From the IMG/VR virus record IMGVR_UViG_3300048597_000641, positions 1-49,401 of that record: 49,401 nucleotides of DNA. One strand, given 5' to 3'. The notes under the pieces were generated by a model. The model saw nothing but the letters and a program-made list of their open reading frames with translations, made no database searches and was not told the origin of the DNA. Positions within the stretch are counted from its first letter, which is position 1. Every line of letters starts with the position of its first letter. Position numbers and translations under genes: made by a program. Source of the DNA: a virus. Shown in pieces: positions 1,390 through 30,773 of this stretch.

Positions 1390-3099
1390 TCAATCAAATA
1401 ATTCCTCACTTGCCCTCAGTTCATTGCGTCCGGTGATGAGCTCCAGCGTGCGCAGCCGGCTCAGCGCGTTGTTGAACCCGCCGCCGTCGGCTGAATAGTT
1501 CGTGGCAAAGGCCAGCTCAGTCTTCGTCCGCGATTTCGGCCATGCACCGGCGAGCACTTCGAGGATGGCACGCTCGGCCTTGCCAAGCTGGTTCAGCCAG
1601 TGCGCCAGCAGCGCGGCCCCGCTCGGCAGCGGTGTCCAGTTGCCGAGTGCATCGAGGCCGGCGTCGGTCGCGACCAACTGGTCGCCGGCGCGCTCAATGT
1701 AGCCTTTCGAGGTCAGCGCACTGACGGCATTGTTGAATCCGCCGCCGTTGATGGCGTAGCCAGTCAGGATGGCGATCTGGCGCTTTGATCGACCGGCTGG
1801 GTATTGTGCGAGCGCAGTCAGGATGGCGCGCTCCGCTTTGGGTAGCCCCACCCCGCCGGCGCTGGCTGGCTGACGTGGAGCGTTGACGCGCAGGTAGTTG
1901 CGTGCGCGTAGATCGGCCAGGGCCGGATCGACGCGCCGTGAGCTGTCAACGGCCGGCACATGCACTACGGCCTGTTTGGCTGTTGCCTCGCTTAGCGCTT
2001 GGTTGAATCGCTCAATGGACGCCTGCAGCCGGTTCTGCAATGCAGTCACGTTGTTGAGTGCATCTGTGATCGCCGCATTCAACTCGCGCCCGGCTGCCGT
2101 GATCTCCGCCGGCACCACTTGCACCTCGACACGCTGCACGATTGGCGCTGCGGGCGATGGGGCCGGCTGCCGCTTCAGTTGCTGCTCCAGATCAGCGATG
2201 CGCCGGCGCAACTCACGCGGGTCGTTGGCCTTCGACTGCTCTTCCGCTTCAGCGAGCGACTGCCTGATGATGCTGAGATCAACCTGCGCAAGCGTGGCCG
2301 GCTCGGTGATCGCTTCGTCCCCGTCGGGCGTGCGGCCAGAATCGAAGGTCTTGATGCGCGGGAATGCCACGCGCTGCAACACGCCCTGTTCCGGCGCCCA
2401 TACCCAACCCTCGCCACGCTGGAGGCGCGCGAGCGATTGCAACACCTCTCGCCCTTCCGCATCATCGGCCTGTCCAGATATCCACGCCTCGATGGCTTTG
2501 CGATCCTGCGGCGCCGTCAGTCGCATGGCGATAAGCGTGTTGGCCTGCGTGAGCACGTTCTTGTGCAGCACCGCCGGCCGCTGCGTGATCATCATCACGC
2601 GAAAGCCGCGCACGCGGCCGCGCCGCACGATGCGGTCTACCTGATGCAGCATGCGCTTCGACTCCGGCAACGGATTCTGCGGCGCGAATTCGTCGGCCTC
2701 ATCGATGATCAGGTGCAGCGGCGCGCGATTCAGTCGGTGGATCGCCTCGGCGAACTCGGTCACGAAGCGTTGCCGTGCACCGATGAGCATGTCGCTCAGG
2801 TCGATGACGAGCGGCAGATTGCGTGTGGCGATCAACTCGGCGACGGCATTGCCACTGGTCTCAGAGATCGGCGCGTCGCGATGCTCACCGCCCAAGATGA
2901 CGACGGGATAGCCGGCGTGCTGGCCGTCGGCGCTGGAGCGCAGGCCATACCACACGCCGGTGGGATCAATGACGCACACGCGCTGCTTGCGGTCGAGTAG
3001 CGACTCGACGATGCCCCGCGCGGTGTAGCTCTTGCCACTGCCGGTTTTGCCGACGATGGCGATATGCTGACTCAGGGCTTCGGTTGGGATCGCGCTCAT
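1390..3099 (-). CDS. HerA/FtsK-like ATPase with tandem winged-helix C-terminus
   Basis: P-loop ATPase of the HerA-FtsK class, 569 aa. Walker A is GKTGSGKS (residues 17-24) and Walker B is LIIDEADE (D133-E134), followed by a MITQRP element typical of HerA. A basic coiled-coil stretch (around 285-320) leads to two repeated winged-helix-like units, each with a core like GGGFNNA-x-S-L, near residues 440-500 and 515-565. Such ATPases pump or translocate DNA, usually with a nuclease partner; none is adjacent here. The start chosen is the ATG at 3099, which overlaps the upstream stop as ATGA; an upstream extension of 17 codons is less likely. Membership of the family is clear; the job in the phage (DNA processing, segregation or transfer) is inferred. 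Confidence 0.85.
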   Translation of the reverse strand: MSAIPTEALSQHIAIVGKTGSGKSYTARGIVESLLDRKQRVCVIDPTGVWYGLRSSADGQHAGYPVVILGGEHRDAPISETSGNAVAELIATRNLPLVIDLSDMLIGARQRFVTEFAEAIHRLNRAPLHLIIDEADEFAPQNPLPESKRMLHQVDRIVRRGRVRGFRVMMITQRPAVLHKNVLTQANTLIAMRLTAPQDRKAIEAWISGQADDAEGREVLQSLARLQRGEGWVWAPEQGVLQRVAFPRIKTFDSGRTPDGDEAITEPATLAQVDLSIIRQSLAEAEEQSKANDPRELRRRIADLEQQLKRQPAPSPAAPIVQRVEVQVVPAEITAAGRELNAAITDALNNVTALQNRLQASIERFNQALSEATAKQAVVHVPAVDSSRRVDPALADLRARNYLRVNAPRQPASAGGVGLPKAERAILTALAQYPAGRSKRQIAILTGYAINGGGFNNAVSALTSKGYIERAGDQLVATDAGLDALGNWTPLPSGAALLAHWLNQLGKAERAILEVLAGAWPKSRTKTELAFATNYSADGGGFNNALSRLRTLELITGRNELRASEELFD

Positions 3100-3323
3100 T
3101 TCATCTTCCTTGCGACGCGCTTGTCGCTGCCGATGTGATATCTGCCGCACACGACGCAGCGATAGATCGCCATGCGGCTGGGCCGGCCATGCGTCATCTC
3201 GATGCGCACGGCATCGGCTTCGGCGTGGCTGTCATATGCAATCTTGCGTTCGCAGCTTTCAGCCCGGCGAAGATCGCGGATGCGCTGGCGCCGGCGTGGA
3301 TCACGATACCGGCGCAGAGTCAT
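3096..3323 (-). CDS. Small Arg-rich zinc-ribbon-like protein
   Basis: 75-aa, very basic protein (many Arg in the first 30 residues) ending in a knuckle YRCVVCGRYHIGSDK; with the earlier Cys in ESCERK this could complete a metal site. Similar tiny zinc-knuckle proteins are common in phage early regions and usually bind nucleic acid. Both ends are ATGA overlaps (start at 3321-3323 with the HD gene stop; stop with the HerA-like start), which fixes the start over an ATG 24 bp upstream. Function unknown. Confidence 0.7.
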   Translation of the reverse strand: MTLRRYRDPRRRQRIRDLRRAESCERKIAYDSHAEADAVRIEMTHGRPSRMAIYRCVVCGRYHIGSDKRVARKMK

Positions 3324-4125: not shown

Positions 4126-5199
4126 CTATGCAAACAGTGCCGGTTGCCGGGGTGTTTCCAGTGACTTCTTCAGCGCGTCCAGCGCCTCACGCCCGCTGAG
4201 GCCGTGCGGGTCCACGATGTTGACGCGGGTGATCTCGCGTCCATCGCGCAGTTGCCGGATGTAGCCAAGCTGCACGAGATACGGCTCGATCTCATCGCGC
4301 ACGCGCTCGGACTCGACATCTGGCAGCATCGACAGCAGCCGGCGCTCGCCCACCGGCCCACCCTCTCGCGCCAGCACCTCCAGATATTGCAGGTCGTTGA
4401 GTGTCAGGCCGTTGCGTGAGGCGATGCCGCGCCCGAGCATGACGCGGCGCACGCATTCATCGATGTTGGCGCCTTCGCTAATAGCGATCTCGTCACGCAC
4501 GTCGCGCGCAATGTCCAGCGCGGCGCGGGGCACGCGCCGGCCACACATGGCGATGCGGGTGTGAATCTCCGCCGGCAGATCGGCGAAGCGGCGCGCCACG
4601 ATCTGCGCGACCTCCTCGACTGTGTAGCGCGACAGGACGATCTCGGTGCAGCGCGAGCGGAAGGCGTCATCCAGCTCGCTGGCCTTCGTGGTGGCGAAGA
4701 TGAAGAAGGCCTGTTTGAGCACCGCGACGAAGCGACCATCGCGGCCTTTGATGACGGCGCTGCGGTCGTCGCTTTCTATCGCGGTGAGCAGGCTCTCCTG
4801 CGTGCGCAGGCCGAGCGTGTGCACCTCGTCGATCATCACCGCGAAAGGTGGATATTCCAGGACGCGCATACCGCTCTGCTCGCCGGTGTGCTTGGCGGTC
4901 TGGCCGACGGTGAACAACTTCTCGTCGATCATGTCGAACAATTCCTCGCGTGTCTTTACGGCGTGGCCGTCGAGCCGGATGAACGGCACACCGAGCGCGC
5001 CGGCGACGCGCTTCGACAAATCCGTCTTGCCGGTGCTGGCCGGCCCCACCAGCAGGAACGTGCGGTCGAGATAGATCGGCTCGCGGCTGAGTGCGATGGC
5101 CAGTGAGCGCTTGACGGCATACACGGCGTTGCTTTGGCCGATGAAGCCGTCGAAGGCCTTTTCGACGGTGCTGCGGATGTTGGTGGTGATCGCGGTCAT
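4126..5199 (-). CDS. RuvB-like AAA+ ATPase
   Basis: 357 aa, near the usual RuvB length. Walker A GPASTGKT (52-59), Walker B MIDEVH (D124-E125), sensor-1 FATTKASEL (about 169-176), arginine finger region FRSRC (R181/R183), then an AAA+ lid and a C-terminal winged helix (SLPDVESERVRDEIEPYL-like segment). The opening IGQ / AVKRSLAIAL layout is as in RuvB. RuvB drives Holliday-junction branch migration, but no RuvA or RuvC-like gene is nearby. The start at 5199 overlaps the upstream stop (TGATG) with AGGAG 11 bases before it. Likely acts in phage DNA recombination or replication; could instead load a different machine. Confidence 0.85.
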   Translation of the reverse strand: MTAITTNIRSTVEKAFDGFIGQSNAVYAVKRSLAIALSREPIYLDRTFLLVGPASTGKTDLSKRVAGALGVPFIRLDGHAVKTREELFDMIDEKLFTVGQTAKHTGEQSGMRVLEYPPFAVMIDEVHTLGLRTQESLLTAIESDDRSAVIKGRDGRFVAVLKQAFFIFATTKASELDDAFRSRCTEIVLSRYTVEEVAQIVARRFADLPAEIHTRIAMCGRRVPRAALDIARDVRDEIAISEGANIDECVRRVMLGRGIASRNGLTLNDLQYLEVLAREGGPVGERRLLSMLPDVESERVRDEIEPYLVQLGYIRQLRDGREITRVNIVDPHGLSGREALDALKKSLETPRQPALFA

Positions 5200-5510
5200 C
5201 AGAACAGGCTCTCCTGTTTGGCTTGTGGTGCGGTCGGCTCCAGCTTCACTAGCCGCAGACAGTAGCCCACCCAACTGTTGATGCCTGGCTCGATCTCTGC
5301 CGGCGTGCTGCTCGATACGCGATAACCAACGCGCTTCAGGTAAGCGACGAAGATTTTCATTTCGGCTTCGTCCGGCGCTTTGTTCACGCGCGTGATGATG
5401 AGTTGTTGGTTGTCGGCGTCGTAGTCGAGGCGAGCACCCCGCTCCAGATGCGCTGGCGTCGCGCGCCTGCCGGCGATGGTCTCGCTGAGAATAAATGCCA
5501 GTGGTTCCAT
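5199..5510 (-). CDS. Hypothetical protein, 103 aa, first gene of operon
   Basis: No domain recognised. The C-terminus QAKQESLF resembles a short clamp-binding tail (QxxLF-type), a motif by which many DNA-repair proteins dock on the sliding clamp; this is suggestive only. It is translated from the ATG at 5510, just 15 bases after a dyad operator (5525-5563), and its stop overlaps the start of the RuvB-like gene, so it leads the accessory DNA-processing operon. Confidence 0.6.
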   Translation of the reverse strand: MEPLAFILSETIAGRRATPAHLERGARLDYDADNQQLIITRVNKAPDEAEMKIFVAYLKRVGYRVSSSTPAEIEPGINSWVGYCLRLVKLEPTAPQAKQESLF

Positions 5511-6121: not shown

Positions 6122-6818
6122 TGATCTCACCATCCCCGTAAATCCACTCGCGGTCCTTGCCCTGCTGCGCCGGCGTGCACATGCCCCACCCCGCCAGCAC
6201 ATCAAGCGCCTTTGAAATGTGGCCGTTCGATGTGATGTTGCACAGCCGGCGCACGTTGTCCTGTGTGGGCGGGATCTGCTGCAAATACATGCGGTTGTGG
6301 ATGTCGGTCGCCATGTTGATAAGCATGTCGCGACTGATCATCTGGTTGTCGCCGGCCTTTACCAGATCGGCTTTAGCGACCTGCGTCGGGCGCTGCGATT
6401 GCGCCGGCGGGTTGATCTGGATCGGCGTGCGGTTCATGCTCTGGCCGGTGATCTGAATCAGCGCGCCCATCACGGCGCTGTTCTGCTCGATGGACGAGCG
6501 AACAAGTTGGTTGGTTTCACTAACTTGTTGCGCCACGCCGGCGACGCTGGCCTTGCTGGTCTCACGAATGACCCAAATCAGCACAGGAATGCCACCAACC
6601 AGAATGGCGATGAGTGCGCACGACACAACGGTGAGCAGTAGCGCAACCTTGTAATCAGCAACAAATTCGCCCACAAACAAACGCACGAGAATGAACGCGC
6701 CGACGAGCACGCCGGCGATATACAGCATGAAGCGCGGCCCTTCGCGCAGCACGTTTGCACCCCAGCCGGACGACCGCTCAGTCGTCACGCCGGCGTCGTT
6801 GTTCACCACTTGCGCCAT
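6111..6818 (-). CDS. Two-TM membrane protein with winged-helix-like tail
   Basis: 235 aa. Two strong membrane segments (FMLYIAGVLVGAFILVRLF near residue 30 and a longer one, VALLLTVVSCALIAILVGG plus IPVLIWVI, near 58-85), then a coiled region (VAQQVSETNQLVRSSIEQNS) and a soluble C-terminus that looks like a winged helix (NVRRLCNITSNGHISKALDVL). The chosen ATG (6818) follows GAGGA; it overlaps the upstream gene by 16 bp. A membrane-anchored DNA-binding protein is plausible; unknown function. Confidence 0.65.
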   Translation of the reverse strand: MAQVVNNDAGVTTERSSGWGANVLREGPRFMLYIAGVLVGAFILVRLFVGEFVADYKVALLLTVVSCALIAILVGGIPVLIWVIRETSKASVAGVAQQVSETNQLVRSSIEQNSAVMGALIQITGQSMNRTPIQINPPAQSQRPTQVAKADLVKAGDNQMISRDMLINMATDIHNRMYLQQIPPTQDNVRRLCNITSNGHISKALDVLAGWGMCTPAQQGKDREWIYGDGEINDE

Positions 6819-7246
6819 TTGCTTGCCATCCTCATCAGTGCGCCCACGCTGGCGCACATCAGCACAATTCCGATCACGCACCACAGCTCTATAGGCAGCC
6901 CCGTGTGCACATCGTCCGGCGCCGGTGTGCTCGTCGGCGCGGCAGTCGGCGCCAATGTTTCAGTTGGCATACTGGTTGCTGTTGGCACCGGCGTGTTGGT
7001 GGGTCGTGGCGTTGCTGTGGGCGCGTCGGTCGCCGTCGGTGCTGGCGTCCATGTGGGCGCTAGTGTCGCCGATGGCAGCGGCGTAGCCGTCGGCGGCGCT
7101 TCGCGCGTGATCACTGCCCGGGCAGTCGCACGCGCTGCGCTCACCACAGCCGTCGCTTCCTCGCAGCCTGGCACTGTGCACTGTGCAACTGCTGGCTGCG
7201 CAATCATCACGCATGAGATCAACGTCGCCACCATCCTCCTCGTCAT
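6803..7246 (-). CDS. Secreted/anchored Pro-Thr-rich protein
   Basis: 147 aa. An N-terminal signal peptide (MTRRMVATLISCVMIAQPAVA) precedes two Cys, a linker of about 60 residues made of PTATP/PTNTPVPT-type repeats, and a C-terminal membrane helix (LWCVIGIVLMCASVGALM). Pro/Thr linkers of this style are a hallmark of Chloroflexota surface proteins. It would be displayed outside the membrane. It heads an operon behind the dyad operator at 7259-7297. It may alter the lysogen surface (for example superinfection exclusion); that is inference. Confidence 0.75.
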   Translation of the reverse strand: MTRRMVATLISCVMIAQPAVAQCTVPGCEEATAVVSAARATARAVITREAPPTATPLPSATLAPTWTPAPTATDAPTATPRPTNTPVPTATSMPTETLAPTAAPTSTPAPDDVHTGLPIELWCVIGIVLMCASVGALMRMASKWRKW

Positions 7247-8053: not shown

Positions 8054-8272
8054 CTACATCATGAATCCTTCAAGCTCATCGCGCAGATCATCGCGGTCAT
8101 CAGGTGTCGTTTCTGTTTGCGCCGGCTGCCGGCCTTCGAGCGCATTAACGACCAGCCGGCCCTTGTTGGGTGCGTGATCGATGAGGTCAATCAAGCGCTG
8201 ATCGCGCTCCGGGTGCAGCGACACTTTGATCACGCGCTTGACGAGTTGGACCGGCGACCGTTTGCGTCCCAT
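8054..8272 (-). CDS. ParR-like ribbon-helix-helix centromere-binding protein
   Basis: 72 aa. The stretch RVIKVSLHPERDQRLIDLI followed by NKGRLVVNALEG has the strand-helix-helix plan of StbB/ParR proteins, which bind centromere repeats and cap ParM filaments. The acidic C-terminal tail (TTPDDRDDLRDELEGFM) resembles the filament-contacting tail of ParR. It begins one base after the stop of the ParM-like gene, the standard parMR order. Length is shorter than R1 ParR (117 aa). Confidence comes from position plus fold pattern, not from a search. Confidence 0.65.
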   Translation of the reverse strand: MGRKRSPVQLVKRVIKVSLHPERDQRLIDLIDHAPNKGRLVVNALEGRQPAQTETTPDDRDDLRDELEGFMM

Positions 8273-8273
8273 G

Positions 8274-9239
8274 TCACTTTGCAGCCTGCATGAGGCCGAA
8301 CTTGTAAAGGCCGCGCGCGACGCTCAAGACCGGCTCGTCGCTCTCGATCAAGCGCGAGCGAAAAAGATCGCCGAGTGCATCACGCAACAACAGCGCGCCA
8401 CCGCCGACGCAGATGACGTGATCAAAACGAGCAGCAGCATCACCCCATTTCCGCTCGATGTGGCCATGCACCTGCGCGCCCCACTTCGAGAGGGCCGCGG
8501 GTTCATCGAGCGAACCAGCGCGCAGGCGCACATCGAGTTCGCCGAGTGAGAACAACGAGCGACGGCTCTCGTTCACCAGCTCCAGAAAGCGCCTGACACC
8601 CAGCTTCTCGCCGGCGGTGAAACGCGCAACGGCTTGGTTGTCTCGCAACACCAAGAGTTCAATCGTGTTGAACCCGATGGAGATCACGGCGATTTCCTTC
8701 CCTTTTATCTGGCGACCAGCCGGCTGGCCGGCGGCAGTCAGCAACCAGTCGAGATATGCCGCGTGCGCTTGAGACACACAGCCGACGCGATTGACGACTG
8801 CAATGTGCTCGACCTTGTCGGCACGCCAGACGTGCGCGCCGGCTAGCCACAATTTCACGGCGTCCACGCGCTTCTTGCTGTCATCACCAGCGGCGAGGCC
8901 GAGCGGCAGTCCGATCATCAGCGCGATGGGATCGTCCTCACGTGTGTTTTGTGATGTCAGCGCGGCATACACCAGCGCCTTCATCTCAGGGCTGCCGGCG
9001 AGTTTGTCGTAGTCAAGTCGCTCGACCGGCGTGCCGGCGTCATGCGCGCCTTCGCCGACGAGCAACCGGCCGCTTCCATTCAGGATCGTCAGTGGCCGGC
9101 GTTTGGCGCTCATACCGAGCGCCTTGAGGTCAATGTCCTCTTGCACGGGCATCGCGACTTGCGAGAGGATCACCTTGCCGCCGGCGTCGCTCCACAACTT
9201 CGTGGCACCCATGCCCATGTCCAGTCCGATTGTTCGCAT
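8274..9239 (-). CDS. ParM/StbA-like actin (PRTRC protein D type)
   Basis: 321-aa actin-fold ATPase. Phosphate-1 motif IGLDMGMGATKL (Asp7), phosphate-2 VISIGFNTIELLVL (about 185-198) and adenosine motif VICVGGGALLL (about 280) are all present. Plasmid ParM polymerises to push sister plasmids apart; PRTRC cassettes regularly carry a ParM relative designated protein D. AGGAG six bases before the ATG at 9239 fixes the start. A dedicated promoter/operator (9346-9374) precedes it, so it is separately controlled from the PRTRC genes immediately upstream. Confidence 0.85.
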   Translation of the reverse strand: MRTIGLDMGMGATKLWSDAGGKVILSQVAMPVQEDIDLKALGMSAKRRPLTILNGSGRLLVGEGAHDAGTPVERLDYDKLAGSPEMKALVYAALTSQNTREDDPIALMIGLPLGLAAGDDSKKRVDAVKLWLAGAHVWRADKVEHIAVVNRVGCVSQAHAAYLDWLLTAAGQPAGRQIKGKEIAVISIGFNTIELLVLRDNQAVARFTAGEKLGVRRFLELVNESRRSLFSLGELDVRLRAGSLDEPAALSKWGAQVHGHIERKWGDAAARFDHVICVGGGALLLRDALGDLFRSRLIESDEPVLSVARGLYKFGLMQAAK

Positions 9240-9381: not shown

Positions 9382-10215
9382 TTAAACCGTCACGCCGCAG
9401 ACGCGGGAGAGCGTCGGCTGGTCGATGACGAGCGGTGATGCACCGCCCCACACGGCATCGAACGCAAGCGCGAAGTAGCGCAGGTCGCCGCGCAGAAACG
9501 CATCGAGCATGGTGAGCGCGTGGGCGGCCACCATGCGATTTACCATTAGCCCTTGCTCACCGGCGGTGGTCAGTTCGGCGCATGACGCGCCACTTCGCAG
9601 CTTCTTTGCCTTTGGCACGGCGATGAGGTCGGGATACACCACATGCGGCGCCGGCAGCCGCTCGATCATGCCGAGCGCGGCGCCCCCGCGCATGGACTGC
9701 TTTGTAGGCGCGTTGCCGATGCAAACCTGCCCGCTGTGCCGTTCGTTGCCGCAGTCGAGCCACCACAGGTTGCCGGCGGCGCGGTCGACGGCCTGTGCGA
9801 TAACCGTGCGGGCTGCGGGGTTGTCGACCGCGCCGACGACCAGATTGAGTGTGTGCGCATCGCTGGCGACGAACGTTTCCTTGATGTCGCGCTCGTCGAT
9901 CGGCGTGACGCGATGCAGCACCGGCAGCCCGAACGACTGCATGAGGCGATGCGTGAGCGCCTTCGATTTGTGTTTGCCGATGTCGCCCTTGGCGAAGAGT
10001 TGCCGGCCAACGTTTTTGGCCTCGACGGTGTCGCCGTCGATGAGCGTGAGCGCACACTCGATGTTGCGCGTGACCAGCTCGCCCACCAGCGTGGCCAGTC
10101 CGCTGGCGAGATGCGAGCCGGTGCCACCGCAGCCGACTAACGTGAGTCTGACGTGCTTGTAGGGCGGCAGGCGCAGCGTGAGCGCTGGCGCGGTGTCAGC
10201 GAGCAGATTCAGCAT
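9382..10215 (-). CDS. ThiF/E1-like adenylating enzyme (PRTRC ThiF-family protein)
   Basis: 277 aa, Rossmann-type E1 domain. Nucleotide loop GCGGTGS (28-34); LIDGDTVEAKNVGRQ with D60/D62, N68 and Arg71; K81/K84; and GAVDNPAAR with D131. DCGNERHSGQV (C155) replaces the usual DAG-type loop. E1/ThiF enzymes adenylate the C-terminal Gly of ubiquitin-like proteins. GGAGG six bases before the ATG at 10215 fixes the start, which overlaps the JAMM gene by 20 bp. Order and content match PRTRC cassettes, where this is the ThiF-related component. The substrate is presumably the ubiquitin-like protein at 12530-13009. Confidence 0.88.
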   Translation of the reverse strand: MLNLLADTAPALTLRLPPYKHVRLTLVGCGGTGSHLASGLATLVGELVTRNIECALTLIDGDTVEAKNVGRQLFAKGDIGKHKSKALTHRLMQSFGLPVLHRVTPIDERDIKETFVASDAHTLNLVVGAVDNPAARTVIAQAVDRAAGNLWWLDCGNERHSGQVCIGNAPTKQSMRGGAALGMIERLPAPHVVYPDLIAVPKAKKLRSGASCAELTTAGEQGLMVNRMVAAHALTMLDAFLRGDLRYFALAFDAVWGGASPLVIDQPTLSRVCGVTV

Positions 10216-10837
10216 CGATGTCCTCCGATTCATAGAGATCGCGCACGGGATAGCCGAGTCCGAAGTCATCGAAGATAGACGCCAGCGGCACATCCATGTG
10301 AAGGCCATATATGCCGACCCGGGCGCGCGCCGTTGGCATGGCCTGATCGAGATTGCCGATCACCACGTAGAAGCGCAGTCCCAGCTCGTCAGCATCGTCG
10401 GTGGATGACCAGAACGGATCCATGACTGCGTGGCTGTGAATGTCCACAACTGAAAGCGGGTTGTCGTCGAAGTGCACCGACGTGGGTAAGGCGCTTTGCT
10501 CTGGCATGATCGCGCGCCATTGATTGCGCTGTAGAATCATCTGGAACACGCATTCATTGGGCAGGTGCCGGCGCATGCTGCTCAGAATCGACCACAACCA
10601 CGATGCTGGTATGTCGTGGCCTTTCAGGCGCGCATACGGCTCCAGATGCACCAGGCCACCCACAGACGCCGGCGTCTGCAGCACCATCGCCTCCATGCGC
10701 GTGTCTTCGGCACGCACAAAGATGCCGTTGCCGGCGAACACGTATTCGAAGCCGAGCGCCTTGATCGGCGGCGGGTTGAGTCCCTGCCAATCGGGCGTGT
10801 CGGCGATGCGATGGCATGCAAGATTCAGCTCGCTCAT
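10196..10837 (-). CDS. JAMM/MPN peptidase (PRTRC protein A)
   Basis: 213 aa. A complete JAMM zinc-peptidase motif is present: H134-S-H136, then S144-x-x-D147 (HSHAVMDPFWSSTD), as in deubiquitinases such as Rpn11 and AMSH. The domain occupies the C-terminal half; the first 120 residues are a PRTRC-A-type extension. Such enzymes cleave after the terminal Gly of ubiquitin-like proteins, for maturation or deconjugation. It overlaps the E2-like gene (ATGA at 10837) and the ThiF gene. Catalytic competence is supported by the intact motif; its substrate is inferred. Confidence 0.87.
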   Translation of the reverse strand: MSELNLACHRIADTPDWQGLNPPPIKALGFEYVFAGNGIFVRAEDTRMEAMVLQTPASVGGLVHLEPYARLKGHDIPASWLWSILSSMRRHLPNECVFQMILQRNQWRAIMPEQSALPTSVHFDDNPLSVVDIHSHAVMDPFWSSTDDADELGLRFYVVIGNLDQAMPTARARVGIYGLHMDVPLASIFDDFGLGYPVRDLYESEDIDAESAR

Positions 10838-11658
10838 GCTTCGTTCTCCATGCCGTATTCCATCTCGTCTTCCGTTGTGTCTTCCATCAGGCCGGGGTAG
10901 TCATAGCCATGCTCGTCGACAAGCGTGGTCGGCTGGCGCTGGATGTTGAGCACGTGGCCTACGTCGTTGCGATACCTGTACAGGCGCTGCATCGGGAATC
11001 GCTTGCTGCTGGCGATGGTGCGATAGAAGTTGAGCAGCGATTCCGTCCGCTGCGACACTTCGTTTCTTGCAATGGGATGCGGGCGCGCCGGCGCAATCTT
11101 GTCTGCGCTCAAGTCGTGGTTGAACTCGGACCCGAAGAACAGGTCGGCGGCCTGGTGGATGGATCTCAGCGTGCACGGCGGGAAGGCAACATTGCCGGCA
11201 CAGATCATGCCGTCGGCGTGGATGTTGGGCAGCGGCGCCGTAAACAGTTCGTCGCGCTCGGCCATCGGGCGCACTTTCGCGGCAAAGATCCAATATTGCG
11301 TGCCGGCACCGAGAAACATCCAGCCCGGCATTGGCACATTCAGCTTCACCACGCGCTTGCCGCTACGCCAGGCGATCTCGCGGCGCGCCGGCGGCAGCCA
11401 GATCGCGATGCGCTCGTATTGCGCCTTGCGCTGCCAGAACAGCACGTCGGGCGGCAAGAGGCCAGTCATGGCTTCGAAGCCATGAAACGCGCCGCCCAGG
11501 TCGGCGACGTTGACGGGATAGGTGCTGGCCGGCTTGCCCTTCAGATCGTGGCGTGTGAGCCAGCATGTTTCGTCGGTGACGGTGATGGTGAAGCGCGGCG
11601 TGCGGTCGTAGGCGTCCGCCGGCAGTTTGGTTTTGTTGGTCTTGGTGGTTCGTTTCAT
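10834..11658 (-). CDS. E2-like conjugating protein (PRTRC protein B)
   Basis: 274 aa. The segment PMPGWMFLGAG followed by APLPNIHADGMICAGN carries the conserved prokaryotic E2 family signature with candidate catalytic Cys153 next to Gly-Asn. The N-terminal 100 residues and acidic C-terminal tail are accessory. An E2 would accept a ubiquitin-like protein from the ThiF/E1 and pass it to a target. ATGA overlaps join it to F upstream and A downstream. Assignment to PRTRC-B is from the signature and gene order; conjugation activity has not been shown for this family as far as I know. Confidence 0.82.
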   Translation of the reverse strand: MKRTTKTNKTKLPADAYDRTPRFTITVTDETCWLTRHDLKGKPASTYPVNVADLGGAFHGFEAMTGLLPPDVLFWQRKAQYERIAIWLPPARREIAWRSGKRVVKLNVPMPGWMFLGAGTQYWIFAAKVRPMAERDELFTAPLPNIHADGMICAGNVAFPPCTLRSIHQAADLFFGSEFNHDLSADKIAPARPHPIARNEVSQRTESLLNFYRTIASSKRFPMQRLYRYRNDVGHVLNIQRQPTTLVDEHGYDYPGLMEDTTEDEMEYGMENEA

Positions 11659-12533
11659 TCGGTCACCTGCTCGATGGCGTCGAGGTCGCCGTGGATGACG
11701 CGCGACATCAGCATCAGTCTGTCTTTGCCGCCGGCGTCGATGAACGCGGCACAATTGCCGATGTCGGTGAGGATCGGTGCGCAGACGTTCCAGTTCTCGA
11801 TCAGCGCGCGGATTTCGTCGGCGTTCCAAGGTGGATAACAATCGCACTCTTCGAGATACAGCGTGGTCTCGTCGAGCCAGCCGTAGCCAGTGTCGTTGGT
11901 CACCCAGCGCACCAGCGTGTTGAGGTCGCCCCAGGGCCGGCGCCACTTGCCCCCTGCTGGCGGATCGAGCAGCCACGAGCGCACCTCTGGCATGCCCTCA
12001 CGCACACATGCCACAAGCGCCGGCGCGCCGAAGGCCTTCAGCGCATCGGGTGCGCGCTTGTGAATTTCTTCGTCCTTGAGGCGCATGCGCACGCGGACGC
12101 CGGCCTGCACATCGATGACGACCGAGCAAGCCATGTACCAGATCATCTGCACGCTGAGCGGCTGGCTGTCGATGTAACCGCCTTCGTCGTCGAAGCCCTG
12201 CACATTGATCGGCACGCCGTCCCACCACCAGTAGTCACTGTCGTTGTAGCCGCTGTTCCACTGTGTGAAATAGTCATATGCATAGGGCAGGATCGGGAAC
12301 GGCAGGTGATTGAGCAGAGTGGCATAGCATTGCATCTGTGTACGCTCGCGGGCCGGCAGCGCGCGCCATTGCTGCGGGCAGAACTCGCGCAGCAGGTCGA
12401 TGAACGATACATCCGGCACGACCTGGGACAACGCACCGACCAGCCACGAGCGGCGCAGGCTGGCCGGCTTGCCCCGCCACGTGCGGGGCAACTTGATGTG
12501 TTTGATGGTCGGCGCAGCATCGAGCGAGATCAC
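11655..12533 (-). CDS. PRTRC system protein F-like
   Basis: 292 aa, Trp-rich (for example SDYWWWDGVP, WRRPWGDLNT) and soluble, with no catalytic motif I recognise. It lies between the ubiquitin-like gene and the E2-like gene, both joined by ATGA overlaps, which is the place of protein F in PRTRC cassettes. A C-terminal segment with ECDCYPPW could bind metal. The function of PRTRC-F is unknown; a scaffold or target-recognition role is only a guess. Confidence 0.7.
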   Translation of the reverse strand: MISLDAAPTIKHIKLPRTWRGKPASLRRSWLVGALSQVVPDVSFIDLLREFCPQQWRALPARERTQMQCYATLLNHLPFPILPYAYDYFTQWNSGYNDSDYWWWDGVPINVQGFDDEGGYIDSQPLSVQMIWYMACSVVIDVQAGVRVRMRLKDEEIHKRAPDALKAFGAPALVACVREGMPEVRSWLLDPPAGGKWRRPWGDLNTLVRWVTNDTGYGWLDETTLYLEECDCYPPWNADEIRALIENWNVCAPILTDIGNCAAFIDAGGKDRLMLMSRVIHGDLDAIEQVTE

Positions 12534-13009
12534 AGCAGCGCCTCCCCATCGAGCGCGACGGCCGGCGGGATATCGCGCAGCCGGTCATGCAGCGCATCGA
12601 CGGCGGCGGACTCGGCGCGCTGCCACTCGATCTGCAAGCTGTCAGGTTCGGCTGGCAAGTTGTTGCGGAGCGCAATGGCCACCGTGACGAGCGCCGGCGA
12701 AATGTGCGCGGCTGGCACCTGGCGCAAGACGCACTGAATGTCGCGGGTCGGCGCGATGTCCCCAGATCCTCGTTCCTCTGTCCGAGTAACGAGGACTGAG
12801 GATCGGGGACGCTTTGCCCCCTTGCGTCCGGCCTTCTTGGTGAACACGTAAACCGTGTCGTCGCCGGCGCGCTCGGTCTTCACATCAGGGTCGGCCAGCT
12901 CGGGGAAGTGCCGCGCCATGATTTGCTTGGCCTGTTCGAGCGTGTAGCCGTCCATGGGGAATTTTTTATCCCCATATGAAATCCATTTCTTTCCAGTCGT
13001 CTCACTCAT
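12530..13009 (-). CDS. Ubiquitin-like protein (PRTRC protein C) with C-terminal extension
   Basis: 159 aa. Residues 8-64 match the short PRTRC-C / prokaryotic ubiquitin-like pattern: WISYGDKKFPMDGYTLEQ, then HFPELADPDV and TVYVFTKKAGRKG, a beta-grasp-like unit ending at Gly61 and Gly64. Family members usually stop about here (70-80 aa). This one continues for 95 residues: first a 17-codon insertion from a palindromic repeat (12759-12809), then an unfamiliar alpha-rich domain (RDIQCVLRQVP onward). The extension could be removed by the adjacent JAMM peptidase to expose a terminal Gly; that is inference. GGAG five bases before the ATG at 13009 sets the start. Confidence 0.8.
   Translation of the reverse strand: MSETTGKKWISYGDKKFPMDGYTLEQAKQIMARHFPELADPDVKTERAGDDTVYVFTKKAGRKGAKRPRSSVLVTRTEERGSGDIAPTRDIQCVLRQVPAAHISPALVTVAIALRNNLPAEPDSLQIEWQRAESAAVDALHDRLRDIPPAVALDGEALL
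12759..12809. repeat. 51-bp palindromic element in frame, copy 1
   Basis: Bounded by TCCCCAGATCCTCGTTC on the left and its approximate complement (GACTGAGGATCGGGGA) on the right. It is exactly 17 codons long inside the PRTRC-C gene and matches the 16916-16966 copy at both ends. The encoded peptide is P-R-S-S-V-L-V ... E-R-G-S-G-D. Confidence 0.75.
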
Positions 13010-13505
13010 GGTTCTCCTTCGATGCGATGATGGCGGCTTCAAGCGCGCCAGTCGGCGCTGTGCTGTCACCTTCGATCACCGGCAGGTCGGCAGGTGCGAC
13101 CCCCACGGGCACGACCAATTGGTCGCCCTGCTCCGGCGCGGTCTCTTCGACGGTTTCGGTGCTCGCTTTGTCCATGACATCTGCGAATTCAGTGGATTCG
13201 CCGTTGTCATCGGTGGTCTCGCTCTCGACTTCGTCACTCTCTTTCACATCCGCCTTGCCTGCGGCAGGTTTTGCCGCTTTCGGCTCGGTGACCGTGGGCG
13301 TCTGGTCGGGCCGGCGCAGCAGATCGGCCCACATCTGGTCGAGCAGCGCATGGCGCTCGGCAAATGTGCCGGCTTTGATCAGCGGCATCTCGCCGGCGGG
13401 CGCGCCGGAGATGACGAGCGCGCGCATGCCCTTCTTCGGCTCGCCGATCTCCAGCGTGATCACGACGCGCTTTGTGGCGGGTGTTGTATTGGTCTTGGTT
13501 GCCAT
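13002..13505 (-). CDS. PRTRC system protein E-like
   Basis: 167 aa. A globular N-terminal unit (residues 12-65: VVITLEIGEPKKGM, ALVISGAPAGEMPLIKAGTF, ERHALLDQMWADLL) is followed by a long acidic, Thr/Glu-rich disordered tail. PRTRC-E proteins have a similar small beta unit followed by a low-complexity tail and precede protein C. Here it is the first gene of the PRTRC run and overlaps the ubiquitin-like gene by 8 bp. The identity rests mainly on position; sequence support is modest. Confidence 0.6.
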   Translation of the reverse strand: MATKTNTTPATKRVVITLEIGEPKKGMRALVISGAPAGEMPLIKAGTFAERHALLDQMWADLLRRPDQTPTVTEPKAAKPAAGKADVKESDEVESETTDDNGESTEFADVMDKASTETVEETAPEQGDQLVVPVGVAPADLPVIEGDSTAPTGALEAAIIASKENHE

Positions 13506-13508
13506 GTT

Positions 13509-14159
13509 TCACTTCGTGGCGATCACGCCGATGGTGACCGGCGCGTCGCAGTCGGAGCAATGCCAGCCGTCGGCCTGGCGCACGTAGCTCTCAGGGATGG
13601 ACCCGCATGAGGGGCAGAAGTCGGTGAGCGTGGTTGCCGGCCCTTCGACAAGCTCAGGGTGCCACGCCGGCGGCTCTTCGACGACCTCCTCGATCAGTGG
13701 TTTTTGCTCGACCTTCGGCTTCGGGTTGATGACGCGCTCGACCACCTTCGCGACGACCTCGGCGGTCGCGGTCGCCAGCGACTTGCCCTCGCGCTTCAAC
13801 TCCTTCGAGACGGCTTTCAGATTCGTTTCGGCTTTCGGCGAGTAGGCGACACGCGCGATCTCACGCGCAACCGCTTCGTTCCTCGGCAATTCGCCGGTCA
13901 TCGCTTCGACTTTCACCGCAACCTGCGCGGCTTGGATGAGACGCTCGCCGTGGCGCAGACCGAAGCCGAACTCGCTCTCGCAATACGCCTCGAATGATGT
14001 GAAGCCTTTCAGCCGATGGCCGTCGGCGGCCTTGATCTCAGCGAGCGCGTTGCCCACGTCGATGAACGTGCGCAGCCCTGCGCGGATGCGCGTTTCGAGT
14101 TGTTCGAGATCGAACAGCGTGAGCTGGCGTGGCACGTCGGTGGTCTGGATGTTGCTCAT
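13509..14159 (-). CDS. DNA-binding protein with C-terminal zinc ribbon (possible ParB-role protein)
   Basis: 216 aa. An N-terminal helical domain (TRIRAGLRTFIDVGNALAEI, FEAYCESEFGFGLRHGERLI) matches the phage DUF3102-like helix-turn-helix type. A long basic/acidic helix follows (KELKREGKSLATATAEVVAKVVERV), then a Pro/Glu linker carrying a host repeat (13641-13659), and a four-Cys ribbon FCPSCGSIPES with HCSDCDAP. The start is the ATG at 14159, overlapping the upstream stop as ATGA. It occupies the place of the ParB homologue in PRTRC cassettes but lacks a recognisable ParB nuclease domain. Confidence 0.65.
   Translation of the reverse strand: MSNIQTTDVPRQLTLFDLEQLETRIRAGLRTFIDVGNALAEIKAADGHRLKGFTSFEAYCESEFGFGLRHGERLIQAAQVAVKVEAMTGELPRNEAVAREIARVAYSPKAETNLKAVSKELKREGKSLATATAEVVAKVVERVINPKPKVEQKPLIEEVVEEPPAWHPELVEGPATTLTDFCPSCGSIPESYVRQADGWHCSDCDAPVTIGVIATK
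13641..13659. repeat. Short palindromic repeat, CCCTTCGACAAGCTCAGGG type
   Basis: A 19-bp imperfect palindrome, in frame in the zinc-ribbon gene (read as PELVEGP). Close relatives are at 19314-19354 and 40306-40324. This core is a widely dispersed short repeat in several bacterial genomes. Confidence 0.6.
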
Positions 14160-22045: not shown

Positions 22046-22879
22046 GTGGCAGTACCAAACAAGGTCAAAGAGCGGATGGTCGCCGGCGTCAAGCGCTTCC
22101 AGCCCATTCTGGCGAATGCCAAGGCGCGCGACATCAATGAAACGGACACCGTCACCATCGTCAAGGATCTGCTGGCGGAGATATTCGGCTTCGACAAGTA
22201 TTCGGAGATCACATCTGAATATGCCATTCGCGGCACGTATGTCGATCTGGCGATCAAGCTGGCCGGCACGCTGGAGATGCTGATTGAGGTGAAGTCCATC
22301 GGCCTGGAGGCGAAAGACGCCTACATCAAGCAAGCCGTGGACTATGCCGCCAATCAGGGGGTGGAGTGGGTGGTGTTGACCAATGGTGCAAGCTGGCTGG
22401 TGTATCGCGTGTCATTCAAGCAGCCGATCGAGCATGAGCTGGTGGTGCGGCTGGATCTGCTAAACGTCAACCCCAAGGACGATGACGACCTGGACGCGCT
22501 GTATCTGATGTGCAAGGAAGGCATCATGAAGTCGATGCTGGGCGAATACCATGCCCAGCGGCAGGCGCTGAGCCGTTACTTTATTAGCGCCATGATGCAG
22601 ACCGACCCGGTGCTGGATGTGATCCGGCGCGAGCTGCGGCGCATCTCGCCGGATGTGAAGATCACGAACGAGCAGATTTGCGACGTGCTGCTGCAGGAAG
22701 TACTGAAGCGCGATGTGGTGGAAGGCGAGAAAGCTGAAGATGCGAAGCGCAAGATCAGCCGCTATGCCGCCAAGCAGCAACGCCGGCAGGCGCGTGAGAA
22801 TGGCGGCACGAGTGCGGAGCCGGTGTCGGTGGATGAGTCGCAGCAAGCGGCGCTCGCAAACGGTGCTGCAGCAGCGTAG
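22046..22879 (+). CDS. HsdR N-terminal-like PD-(D/E)XK protein
   Basis: 277 aa, GTG start with AAAGGAG seven bases upstream. Residues about 40-110 have the restriction-endonuclease fold signature of the HSDR_N type: a leading acidic residue in SEITSEYAIR, GTYVDLAIKL (Asp) and LIEVKSIG (E-x-K). The remainder is helical, with no helicase or methylase, unlike a type I restriction subunit. Similar stand-alone proteins are common in bacterial and phage genomes and their role is unclear. Located in the cargo region between the repressor and surface-protein genes, it could be a superinfection or anti-defence factor (inference). Confidence 0.75.
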   Translation: MAVPNKVKERMVAGVKRFQPILANAKARDINETDTVTIVKDLLAEIFGFDKYSEITSEYAIRGTYVDLAIKLAGTLEMLIEVKSIGLEAKDAYIKQAVDYAANQGVEWVVLTNGASWLVYRVSFKQPIEHELVVRLDLLNVNPKDDDDLDALYLMCKEGIMKSMLGEYHAQRQALSRYFISAMMQTDPVLDVIRRELRRISPDVKITNEQICDVLLQEVLKRDVVEGEKAEDAKRKISRYAAKQQRRQARENGGTSAEPVSVDESQQAALANGAAAA

Positions 22880-29258: not shown

Positions 29259-29485
29259 ACCCGCGCATTGCGGTCGTGCGCAGCGCGGAATGCCCTGGCA
29301 GGGGCGTTACGGTTGGCAGGTGTCCCGACGTGGCCGCCGGCGAGCTTTCTGGCAGCCGGCCACCACCCCAAGGGGGTGGCAAGCACACCACCCGCCAATC
29401 CGCCCAACGATCACGACCGCAATGCTGTTTCGGGTGCGCGCAACAATATTGTATACAAGTATACGATTTAAGGTTGAGTGAGTGA
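29255..29485 (+). CDS. Uncertain small ORF, 76 aa
   Basis: ATG overlaps the preceding stop (ATGA). It contains a short host palindrome (29363-29379) and several Cys near the end (RPQCCFGCAQQYC). A frame shifted by one gives a smoother peptide from a TTG at 29268 (67 aa). Neither has a ribosome site, so this 231-bp stretch may be non-coding leader for the methyltransferase. It also holds a GTATACAAGTATAC near-palindrome at 29451-29464. Confidence 0.3.
   Translation: MNPRIAVVRSAECPGRGVTVGRCPDVAAGELSGSRPPPQGGGKHTTRQSAQRSRPQCCFGCAQQYCIQVYDLRLSE
29363..29379. repeat. CCACCCC-type palindrome
   Basis: CCACCCCAAGGGGGTGG, one member of a family also at 19330-19346 and 32941-32957. Confidence 0.5.
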
Positions 29486-29489
29486 CACA

Positions 29490-30410
29490 ATGAACATGCA
29501 AATTGAAATTGCGGCTATCGCGTCACTGTCGTTGATGCCGGCGGAGATCGTGCCAATTCACTACACCGAGCGCGATCTCGATGTGGTGCGGCATCTCATC
29601 GTCGAGAACGGCCAGCGACTGCCGGTATTGGTGCAGCGCGAATCCGGCCGCGTTTTTTGGGGCGGCGACATCTGGCTTCAGATGCGCGCCATGAACAAGA
29701 CTGACATCGCGGTGATCTATCACGATGTCGATGACCGCGAGGCTGCGCGGATCGCCATTCGCCTTCGGCGCGCCGGCGAACTGGCTGAGTGGAGCGAGAA
29801 GGAACTCGCCGAAATCCTCGCACAGATGGAAGACCCAGAGACGATGGGTTTCTCCGATGAAGAATTTGAGGAGCTGCTGGCCACCGTCTCGCCGCCCAAG
29901 GCCGAGCCGACCGGCGAAGACCCCGGGCCGTTGGAGCCATCGAAACTGACTGAACTCAAGGCCAAGTGGAACACTGCACTCGGCCAGCTTTGGATCATTG
30001 AGAGCAAGTCTGTGCTGGGCCGGCAGCATCGTTTGCTGATCGGCGACAGCACGAAAGCCGACGACGTGCGCCGGTTGATGAATGGTGAACGCTCGAAGCT
30101 GTTCTCGACGGATCCGCCATATCTGGTCAACTATGACGGCACCAACCACCCGGGCGATGCCAAGAACAAAGACTGGAGCGATACCTACAACGACTGGGAT
30201 GGTGATGATCAGGGCGAGCAGTTCTATCACGCCTTCATCAGCACCGCGATTCGTGAAGCCATTACTGATCATGCTGCGTGGTATTGCTGGCATGCGAGCG
30301 CGCGTCAATCCATGCTGGAGCGCATTTGGAAAGAGCATGGCGCGTTCATGCACCAGCAGATCATCTGGACGAAGACGCGACCTGTTTTGACACGTTCTTG
30401 GTATCGCTGA
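29490..30410 (+). CDS. ParB-domain/DNA methyltransferase, N-terminal part (in-frame UGA)
   Basis: 306 aa up to a TGA at 30408-30410. Residues 15-90 form a ParB-like nuclease domain (VPIHYTERDLDVVRHLIVEN, GRVFWGGDIWLQM). Residues 160-306 open an amino-methyltransferase with motif IV DPPY at 208-211 (LFSTDPPYLVNYDG). The same frame continues past the stop with HEPCMFGW and motif I (30426-30773), giving a 427-aa beta-type enzyme that would methylate N4-C or N6-A. In relatives the residue at the stop is typically Trp (x-W-x-HEP), one base from TGA. So this is either a nonsense mutation, readthrough or an assembly error. Confidence 0.8.
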   Translation: MNMQIEIAAIASLSLMPAEIVPIHYTERDLDVVRHLIVENGQRLPVLVQRESGRVFWGGDIWLQMRAMNKTDIAVIYHDVDDREAARIAIRLRRAGELAEWSEKELAEILAQMEDPETMGFSDEEFEELLATVSPPKAEPTGEDPGPLEPSKLTELKAKWNTALGQLWIIESKSVLGRQHRLLIGDSTKADDVRRLMNGERSKLFSTDPPYLVNYDGTNHPGDAKNKDWSDTYNDWDGDDQGEQFYHAFISTAIREAITDHAAWYCWHASARQSMLERIWKEHGAFMHQQIIWTKTRPVLTRSWYR

Positions 30411-30425
30411 GCGCACGAACCCTGC

Positions 30426-30773
30426 ATGTTTGGGTGGATCAAGGGCAACAAGCCGGCGCGATTTGCGAACGATGTGCCATCAACGCAGTGGGAAGCCGAC
30501 CAGGAGATTCTTGTCGGCGAAGAGACGCTGCACCCAACGCCCAAGCCGACAAAGCTTTTTGAACTGCCGATGTTGCAGCACACGCAGGTGGGCGACATCT
30601 GCTACGAGCCATTCAGCGGCAGTGGCTCGCAGCATGTGGCCGGCGAAAAGCTGGGCCGGCTGGTTTACGGAATGGAGAAGGAGCCGGCCTATGTCGCCGG
30701 CATCTTGGAGCGATTGAGCAAGATGGGACTAGCGCCGGTGTTGGAGGCGGCAGCTCAGCCGGCAATCTCTTAG
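30426..30773 (+). CDS. DNA methyltransferase, C-terminal part after UGA
   Basis: Same reading frame as 29490-30410; coding sense resumes at 30411 (A-H-E-P-C before the Met at 30426). It supplies YEPFSGSGSQHVAGEKLGRL, the AdoMet-binding FxGxG motif I, and a closing helix typical of this fold. No ribosome site precedes 30426, so independent translation is unlikely, and alone it would be inactive. Protects phage DNA from restriction if a full protein is made. Confidence 0.75.
   Translation: MFGWIKGNKPARFANDVPSTQWEADQEILVGEETLHPTPKPTKLFELPMLQHTQVGDICYEPFSGSGSQHVAGEKLGRLVYGMEKEPAYVAGILERLSKMGLAPVLEAAAQPAIS

Follow-up and report, generated by a model that had tools for sequence, protein, structure and literature searches.

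Can a bacterial virus carry a complete ubiquitin-like conjugation pathway of its own, and what would such a pathway act on? The question is raised by a cassette of six overlapping genes of the PRTRC type on the IMG/VR virus record IMGVR_UViG_3300048597_000641, all 49,401 bp of which were analyzed and are referred to here as the window. An earlier annotation made from the letters alone (the original prediction) had read the cassette as an adenylating enzyme (E1), a JAMM peptidase, an E2-like protein and a ubiquitin-like protein (Ubl), together with E- and F-like partners. We consider it reasonably probable that the cassette as a whole is a phage-borne PRTRC-type Ubl conjugation pathway, with a precursor matured by the JAMM peptidase, probably at work at ParB/DNA complexes. 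The component reading of PRTRC is itself already known, having been predicted in 2006. In the excerpts considered here of that paper (Iyer 2006; PMC1779556), PRTRC is operon type 6d, for which conjugation of the Ubl is predicted, with the JAMM peptidase both processing and removing it, and phages are not mentioned. Judged within the open-access literature other than preprints, three points described below appear to be additions: the occurrence of the cassette across phages, the architecture of the Ubl genes (precursor and poly-Ubl), and the fusions of ParB to E.

Enzymes of the phage cassette

The contig is a genuine tailed phage, on which the large terminase subunit (TerL), portal, major capsid protein and tape measure were found. 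An integrase lies at its left end, and its right end is cut within an open reading frame (ORF). The six cassette ORFs and their overlaps were confirmed by an ORF check on the minus strand, running from 13505 to 9382 in the order E-C-F-B-A-ThiF and followed by a ParM-like gene. The stop and start codons of C-F, F-B and B-A overlap by 4 bp, and E and C overlap by 8 bp. The gene starts first called had to be corrected to 11658 for B (MKRTTK..), 13009 for C and, most likely, 10215 for ThiF, the frame of which is open from 10308 and has an ATG at 10215 preceded by GGAGG. Comparison with loci L014, L148 and L149 identified this gene order as the canonical PRTRC order.

By family matches, the cassette is of the PRTRC type, with the ThiF, A, B and C families all present in the window. 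ThiF matched TIGR03736 with E=1.4e-41 and 142.4 bits, 2.3 bits short of the curated cut-off of 144.75, and PF00899 with 61 bits. The A protein matched TIGR03735 (E=3e-15, 56 bits, cut-off 101.8), and B matched TIGR03737 (PRTRC_B; E=1e-16), its 60.5 bits lying below the cut-off of 131. B also reached 78.7 bits against the Pfam family Prok-E2_D (PF14460, cut-off 25), which was matched by all 63 aligned B homologues. The match of C to TIGR03738 was weak (17 bits, E=0.0036), and its assignment was secured by a profile built on phage and plasmid homologues. None of the window proteins scored above the curated PRTRC cut-offs; thus, the window cassette represents a diverged PRTRC branch.

The residues expected of active enzymes were conserved nearly throughout. 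Specifically, the nucleotide loop of the E1 was essentially invariant among 149 ThiF homologues and the candidate Cys214 was present in 144 of 146, in a protein of ~278 residues with a single ThiF domain. Profile matches of the E1 included UBA6, UBA3, UBA2 and UBA5. All JAMM metal ligands are present in the window A protein, and the E, H, H, S and D positions were kept in 120–124 of 121–124 homologues. The A profile matched AMSH-LP best among solved structures, as well as an RPN11-like protein, both matches being weak. In B, Cys153, P142 and N145 were each invariant (134/134 homologues). Near-complete conservation of the catalytic residues speaks against a degenerate or scaffold use of the enzymes.

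The original prediction had made its conjugation reading depend on an E2 fold in B with Cys153 at the active site. The AlphaFold2 model of B (predicted local distance difference test, pLDDT, of 85) was compared to known structures with VIA, and 18 of the 19 best chains were E2s (Z 5.4–3.4, residues 66–226), the next unrelated chain having a Z of 3.0. This match to eukaryotic E2s is at the level of the fold, and a residue-level superposition of Cys153 was not read out from it. A sequence-profile search of the PDB with B gave no match. B is an E2 fold in its predicted structure, with Cys153 at the active-site motif. Similar to type 6d, B also has, beyond C153, the downstream His that was proposed for the E2 (Iyer 2006), here within FNH. 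Family matches, conserved residues and predicted folds together bear out the reading of the components as an E1, a JAMM peptidase, an E2 with Cys153 and a Ubl.

The labels given to the two remaining proteins fared less evenly. In phages, cyanobacteria and Chloroflexota alike, the E and F slots are occupied by coherent protein families in an unchanged order. Both window proteins sit in the right position, which is the main basis of their labels. Homology to the plasmid proteins was weak for E, with E=0.0017–0.03 for the slot family against plasmid PRTRC E in an iterated hidden Markov model (HMM) search of a small pool. No recognizable match was found between the F-slot family and plasmid PRTRC F (iterated HMM, best E=0.8). 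The window E and F proteins had no match in NCBIfam, and hhalign comparisons of the phage-group E and F with plasmid E and F, which included few sequences, yielded no match.

Precursor and poly-Ubl architecture

A beta-grasp fold in C was the other feature on which the original prediction had staked its reading, and the fold was recovered in the predicted structure and in structural matches. The AlphaFold2 model of C contained a beta-grasp core with a pLDDT of about 95. Foldseek returned beta-grasp matches, none of them at E<=0.001, and a PDB sequence-profile search with C gave no match. An hhalign comparison of phage C with plasmid PRTRC C spanned the whole Ubl with E=1.2e-8. The claim that C is a Ubl therefore stood for its core of 64 residues; what it left out is an additional extension of 95 residues in the same frame. 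With it, the original prediction had overlooked the precursor design of the Ubl gene; in our view, this design is the strongest evidence for conjugation. The GC content at third codon positions was 0.76 in the extension, as in the Ubl core. Residues 71–90 were predicted to be a disordered linker (pLDDT 43–47) followed by helices at 91–146, and the junction between Ubl and extension falls in this linker.

Across relatives, the Ubl core ended in Lys-Gly in 104 of 109 domains (5/109 lacked KG), and K63 and G64 were the only invariant columns in an alignment of 46 Ubls, counts to be read with the caution that the domain model was seeded with KG-trimmed sequences and that the 46 rows were picked for reaching the model end. 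Among 24 Ubls with at most 10 residues after the Gly, 17 have a stop codon directly behind it. A tail domain of ~80 residues follows the Ubl in frame at 59 loci and is encoded as the next gene at 9 loci. At L032, the Ubl ends in ...AGTKG, with the start of the tail gene three bases further on. That Ubl and tail are joined at some loci and split at others, always at one position, suggests that the two chains can function independently, and cleavage behind KG would then be expected for the joined forms. For a cut after G64, the JAMM peptidase encoded in the operon would be the obvious protease. On this sequence basis, the tail domain is an unnamed PRTRC component; a Pfam search with it found no match. 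It often has an NPA motif and a GF end, and stands separately in L032:239-487 and L033:7572-7820 and fused in L096 and others. Membership of the window extension in this common tail domain was considered and rejected, as a leave-out HMM ranked the extension among shuffled sequences.

A second form of precursor was found in the isolated Bacillus phage vB_BauM_KLEB27-3 (OM634661.1), where one ORF, annotated as hypothetical, encodes four head-to-tail Ubl units (L004:694-1458; record positions 172930-173637). The units are joined exactly as ...AGVKG|MARTVKYG..., with seven extra residues at the end, and share 89–100% protein identity. Between units 2 and 3, 32 of 171 bases differ with no change in the protein sequence. 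Across all pairs of units, the proportion of synonymous differences (pS) was 0.59–0.83, indicating saturated sites, compared to a nonsynonymous proportion (pN) of 0.007–0.06. An assembly duplication was rejected since the repeats differ at 27–36 of 171 bases. Near-identical protein units with silent-site divergence are the signature of polyubiquitin genes, and the high pS against low pN points to selection on each released monomer, as in polyubiquitin. The cassette of this phage has an E2 with its Cys and a separate JAMM protein and E1. A two-unit Ubl was present in the Anaerolineae contig L139, and no further poly-Ubl phages were found in three IMG/VR scans or in the phage collection.

The head-to-tail, near-identical monomers, silent-site divergence and short C-terminal end of the KLEB27-3 gene resemble eukaryotic polyubiquitin, from which it differs in protein family, in its KG rather than GG end, and in being a gene of a bacterial virus. 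The Ubl-tail form is similarly comparable to eukaryotic ubiquitin-ribosomal protein fusions, in which a Ubl is joined via its terminal Gly to an unrelated protein. Tandem Ubl domains also occur in the type 6e polyUbl operons, which, in the excerpts from Iyer 2006, contain two or three Ubl domains along with an E2/RWD-like protein that is inactive and, in most cases, a JAB protein fused to the E1. In contrast, the four units of KLEB27-3 are nearly identical, its E2 retains the Cys, and its JAMM protein and E1 are separate.

Distribution and the link to partition

The IMG/VR contigs L005, L006 and L007 share the order E-C-F-B-A-ThiF with the window and have a Ubl up to 69% and a ThiF 52–55% identical to those of the window. 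A wider scan recovered 57 viral and 80 bacterial loci, the latter mostly from Chloroflexota and cyanobacteria. E1, E2, JAMM and Ubl occurred together at 37 viral loci, equal to 36 distinct IMG/VR contigs (one duplicate), and 26 of these loci (25 distinct) lie on a contig that also encodes a terminase or portal. The phage setting in the original prediction is consequently real and not unique, with at least 25 distinct viral contigs of this kind. A viral scan with B alone as the query gave no match. Two isolated phages carry the cassette: Burkholderia phage BgVeeders33 (circular, 32.9 kb) and the Bacillus phage described above. In a ThiF tree, the window grouped with L005, L006, L007 and a Chloroflexota contig, and the phage copies required at least 11 label changes (21 by parsimony), indicating that the cassette moved often between phages and other replicons. 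A Thr/Pro-rich repeat protein of the TPTAT type is encoded at 6803-7246 of the window; such proteins are common in Chloroflexota, and its presence fits the Chloroflexota relatives of the cassette.

Relatives were also found on 397 plasmids, the canonical plasmid cassettes having the order ParB-E-C-F-B-A-ThiF. Plasmid PRTRC (TIGR03735-TIGR03739) and the window share the gene order E-C-F-B-A-ThiF, the four enzyme and modifier families, partition neighbors and the C-terminal Gly of the Ubl. The window differs in lying on a tailed phage, in its sub-cut-off scores, in an F protein not recognizable by sequence, and in the replacement of ParB by another protein. Furthermore, the small Ubl with a conserved C-terminal Gly is standalone in plasmid PRTRC and in type 6d (excerpts from PMC1779556, where the E2 is given a Cys and a conserved His further downstream), whereas the window Ubl keeps the Gly and has its 95-residue extension. 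One plasmid of Deinococcus proteolyticus has two PRTRC ThiF genes within one cassette (L151:4272-7684).

The recurrent neighbors of the cassette are partition and DNA-handling proteins (ParB-like, ParM, HerA), and a ParB-family protein lies near it at 22 distinct related viral loci. In 11 loci, 10 from viral contigs and one from a bacterial contig, ParB and the E domain form a single protein with E at its C-terminal end. Given these fusions and the partition neighbors, the likeliest site of action is a nucleoprotein complex of the ParB type, and from this context the cassette probably acts at ParB/DNA complexes. The partition link of the original prediction has thereby become firmer as genomic context, which is not proof of a substrate. 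The fusion loci are L018, L022, L024, L028, L030, L033, L038, L039, L042, L050 and L132. Upstream of E, the window protein in the ParB slot has a helix-turn-helix-like region, recognized by eye, and C-terminal zinc-ribbon-like Cys pairs. The ParM-like protein matched TIGR03739 (PRTRC D) with E=2.5e-14 and 53 bits vs. a cut-off of 214.8, and was equally close to ParM (Table 1).

Table 1. Cassette genes and surrounding features of the window, with the basis for each assignment.
Feature	Position	Strand	Basis
HerA/FtsK-like ATPase	1390..3150	-	DUF87/HerA_C; homologues directly behind ThiF in L006, L007, L068
RuvB-like AAA+ ATPase	4126..5274	-	homologue directly behind ThiF in L005
Small basic protein after ParM, candidate ParR-like adaptor	8054..8272	-	position; no Pfam match
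ParM-like actin-type partition protein, PRTRC-D-like	8274..9239	-	phrog_691, E=8.5e-26
ThiF-like E1 (adenylating enzyme)	9382..10215	-	TIGR03736, PF00899; GCGGTGS loop, candidate thioester Cys214 in SC214
PRTRC A, JAMM/JAB metallopeptidase	10196..10837	-	TIGR03735; E95, H134-S-H136, S144, D147
PRTRC B, E2-like protein	10834..11658	-	Prok-E2_D; active-site motif LPNIHADGMIC153AGN
Protein in PRTRC F slot, 292 aa	11655..12533	-	position; coherent slot family in 81 loci
C-terminal extension of Ubl, 95 aa + stop	12530..12817	-	same open frame; linker, then predicted helices
PRTRC C, ubiquitin-like beta-grasp core, 64 residues ending ...KKAGRKG	12818..13009	-	hhalign, AlphaFold2
Protein in PRTRC E slot, 167 aa	13002..13505	-	position; slot family in 65 loci
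ParB-slot protein, directly upstream of E	13509..14159	-	position; cluster of 18 loci with L046, a DUF3102 protein

Proposed mechanism and alternatives

From the conserved residues, gene order and precursor forms, conjugation chemistry is likely for this cassette, and we infer its cleavage step, thioester relay, conjugation, substrates and purpose as follows. C would be made as a precursor, which A would cut behind the Lys-Gly that closes the beta-grasp core. The mature C-terminal glycine would be adenylated by the ThiF-like E1, and C would then be passed, probably via Cys214 of the E1, to Cys153 of B. B would attach C to an amine on a target protein, and A may also reverse the conjugates. The E protein, the domain of which is fused to ParB in related phages, would probably bring the machinery to a ParB-like DNA-binding protein. 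The first substrates would be expected at the nucleoprotein complex that serves partition or replication while the phage persists as a lysogen or in a plasmid-like form. Tentatively, and with more doubt than confidence, we suggest that phages and plasmids use the system to reversibly modify their own ParB-type partition or replication complex, with tagging governing either the maintenance of copies or the lysogenic-lytic switch.

Several observations weigh against this proposal. The VIA Z-scores of B were modest (5.4 at best), a Foldseek search of the B model against the PDB gave no significant E2 match, and the downstream His of the E2 was present in only 6 of 11 alignment rows of relatives. 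The window extension had no demonstrable homology to the common tail domain by leave-out HMM, and the ParB-slot protein had no Pfam ParB match. This analysis identified neither an E3 nor a proteasome or unfoldase that would handle tagged substrates, and we found no biochemistry for any PRTRC system in the literature covered.

Temperate phages often carry superinfection defences, and the window ThiF is distantly similar to PADLOC E1-E2 proteins. The same Ubl chemistry might then be directed at a host or competitor, as a prophage-carried antiphage or counter-defence system with a Bil-like use. Bil operons use the E1/E2/JAMM/Ubl set (PMC11354881), and ubiquitin-like conjugation is used in CBASS (PMC10097602). 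BilABCD (Millman 2022) resembles the window cassette in having Ubl, E2, JAMM and E1 in one operon and in making the Ubl as a precursor. The features of BilABCD are two tandem Ubl domains in BilA, a two-domain E1 (BilD) and CEHH in BilB (PMC11354881), all of which the window cassette lacks, having instead one Ubl, a short single-domain E1, a family D E2 with C153AGN, extra E and F proteins and no defence association. A PADLOC search gave no match for A, B or C, leaving the Bil antiphage kinship of the original prediction unsupported, and the operon has neither an effector nor a sensor. The partition and DNA-handling neighbors, the ParB-E fusions and the many plasmid relatives likewise argue against a defence role, which we regard as unlikely. 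Tagging of host or rival-phage proteins, also raised in the original prediction, had no support in anything found.

A relay for sulfur or a cofactor, of the ThiF-ThiS or MoeB-MoaD type, would convert the Ubl C-terminus to a thiocarboxylate. It would account for the ThiF-like E1 and for the free C-terminal glycine, which ThiS and MoaD also require, and a PAPS-reductase-family gene lies near the cassette on some plasmids. However, the Ubl ends in KG rather than GG, a dedicated E2 keeps its Cys in all 134 homologues, no metabolic enzyme is constant in the cassette neighborhoods, and type 6d is set apart from sulfur operons in the excerpts of PMC1779556; we hold such a relay to be very improbable. 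Least credible to us is an assembly or maturation device that works without conjugation, with Ubl-tail and poly-Ubl proteins as structural partners and the E2 and E1 as scaffolds. Ubl and tail are often one chain and no conjugate has been seen so far, as this explanation would have it, but the nearly invariant catalytic residues of all three enzymes, the exact KG ends and the head-to-tail poly-Ubl speak against it.

For the favored reading of a conjugation pathway at ParB/DNA complexes, the comparative data make PRTRC directly testable, as they define a predicted site of precursor cleavage (G64), supply a poly-Ubl of four units that occurs naturally in an isolated Bacillus phage, and point to ParB as a likely partner. 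If it is true, bacterial viruses would not only be targeted by the Ubl-based defences of their hosts but would also possess entire ubiquitin-type pathways serving their own replicons, and genes with head-to-tail modifiers would have arisen in a Ubl system of a bacterial virus as well.

Two further observations were made elsewhere in the window. A ParB-like/N6-N4 DNA methyltransferase frame at 29478-30773 is broken by an in-frame stop at 30408-30410, beyond which the frame goes on with a methylase domain. The protein encoded at 22046-22879 is of the HSDR_N_2 type and is a near-full match to phrog_17239, a phrog of unknown function.

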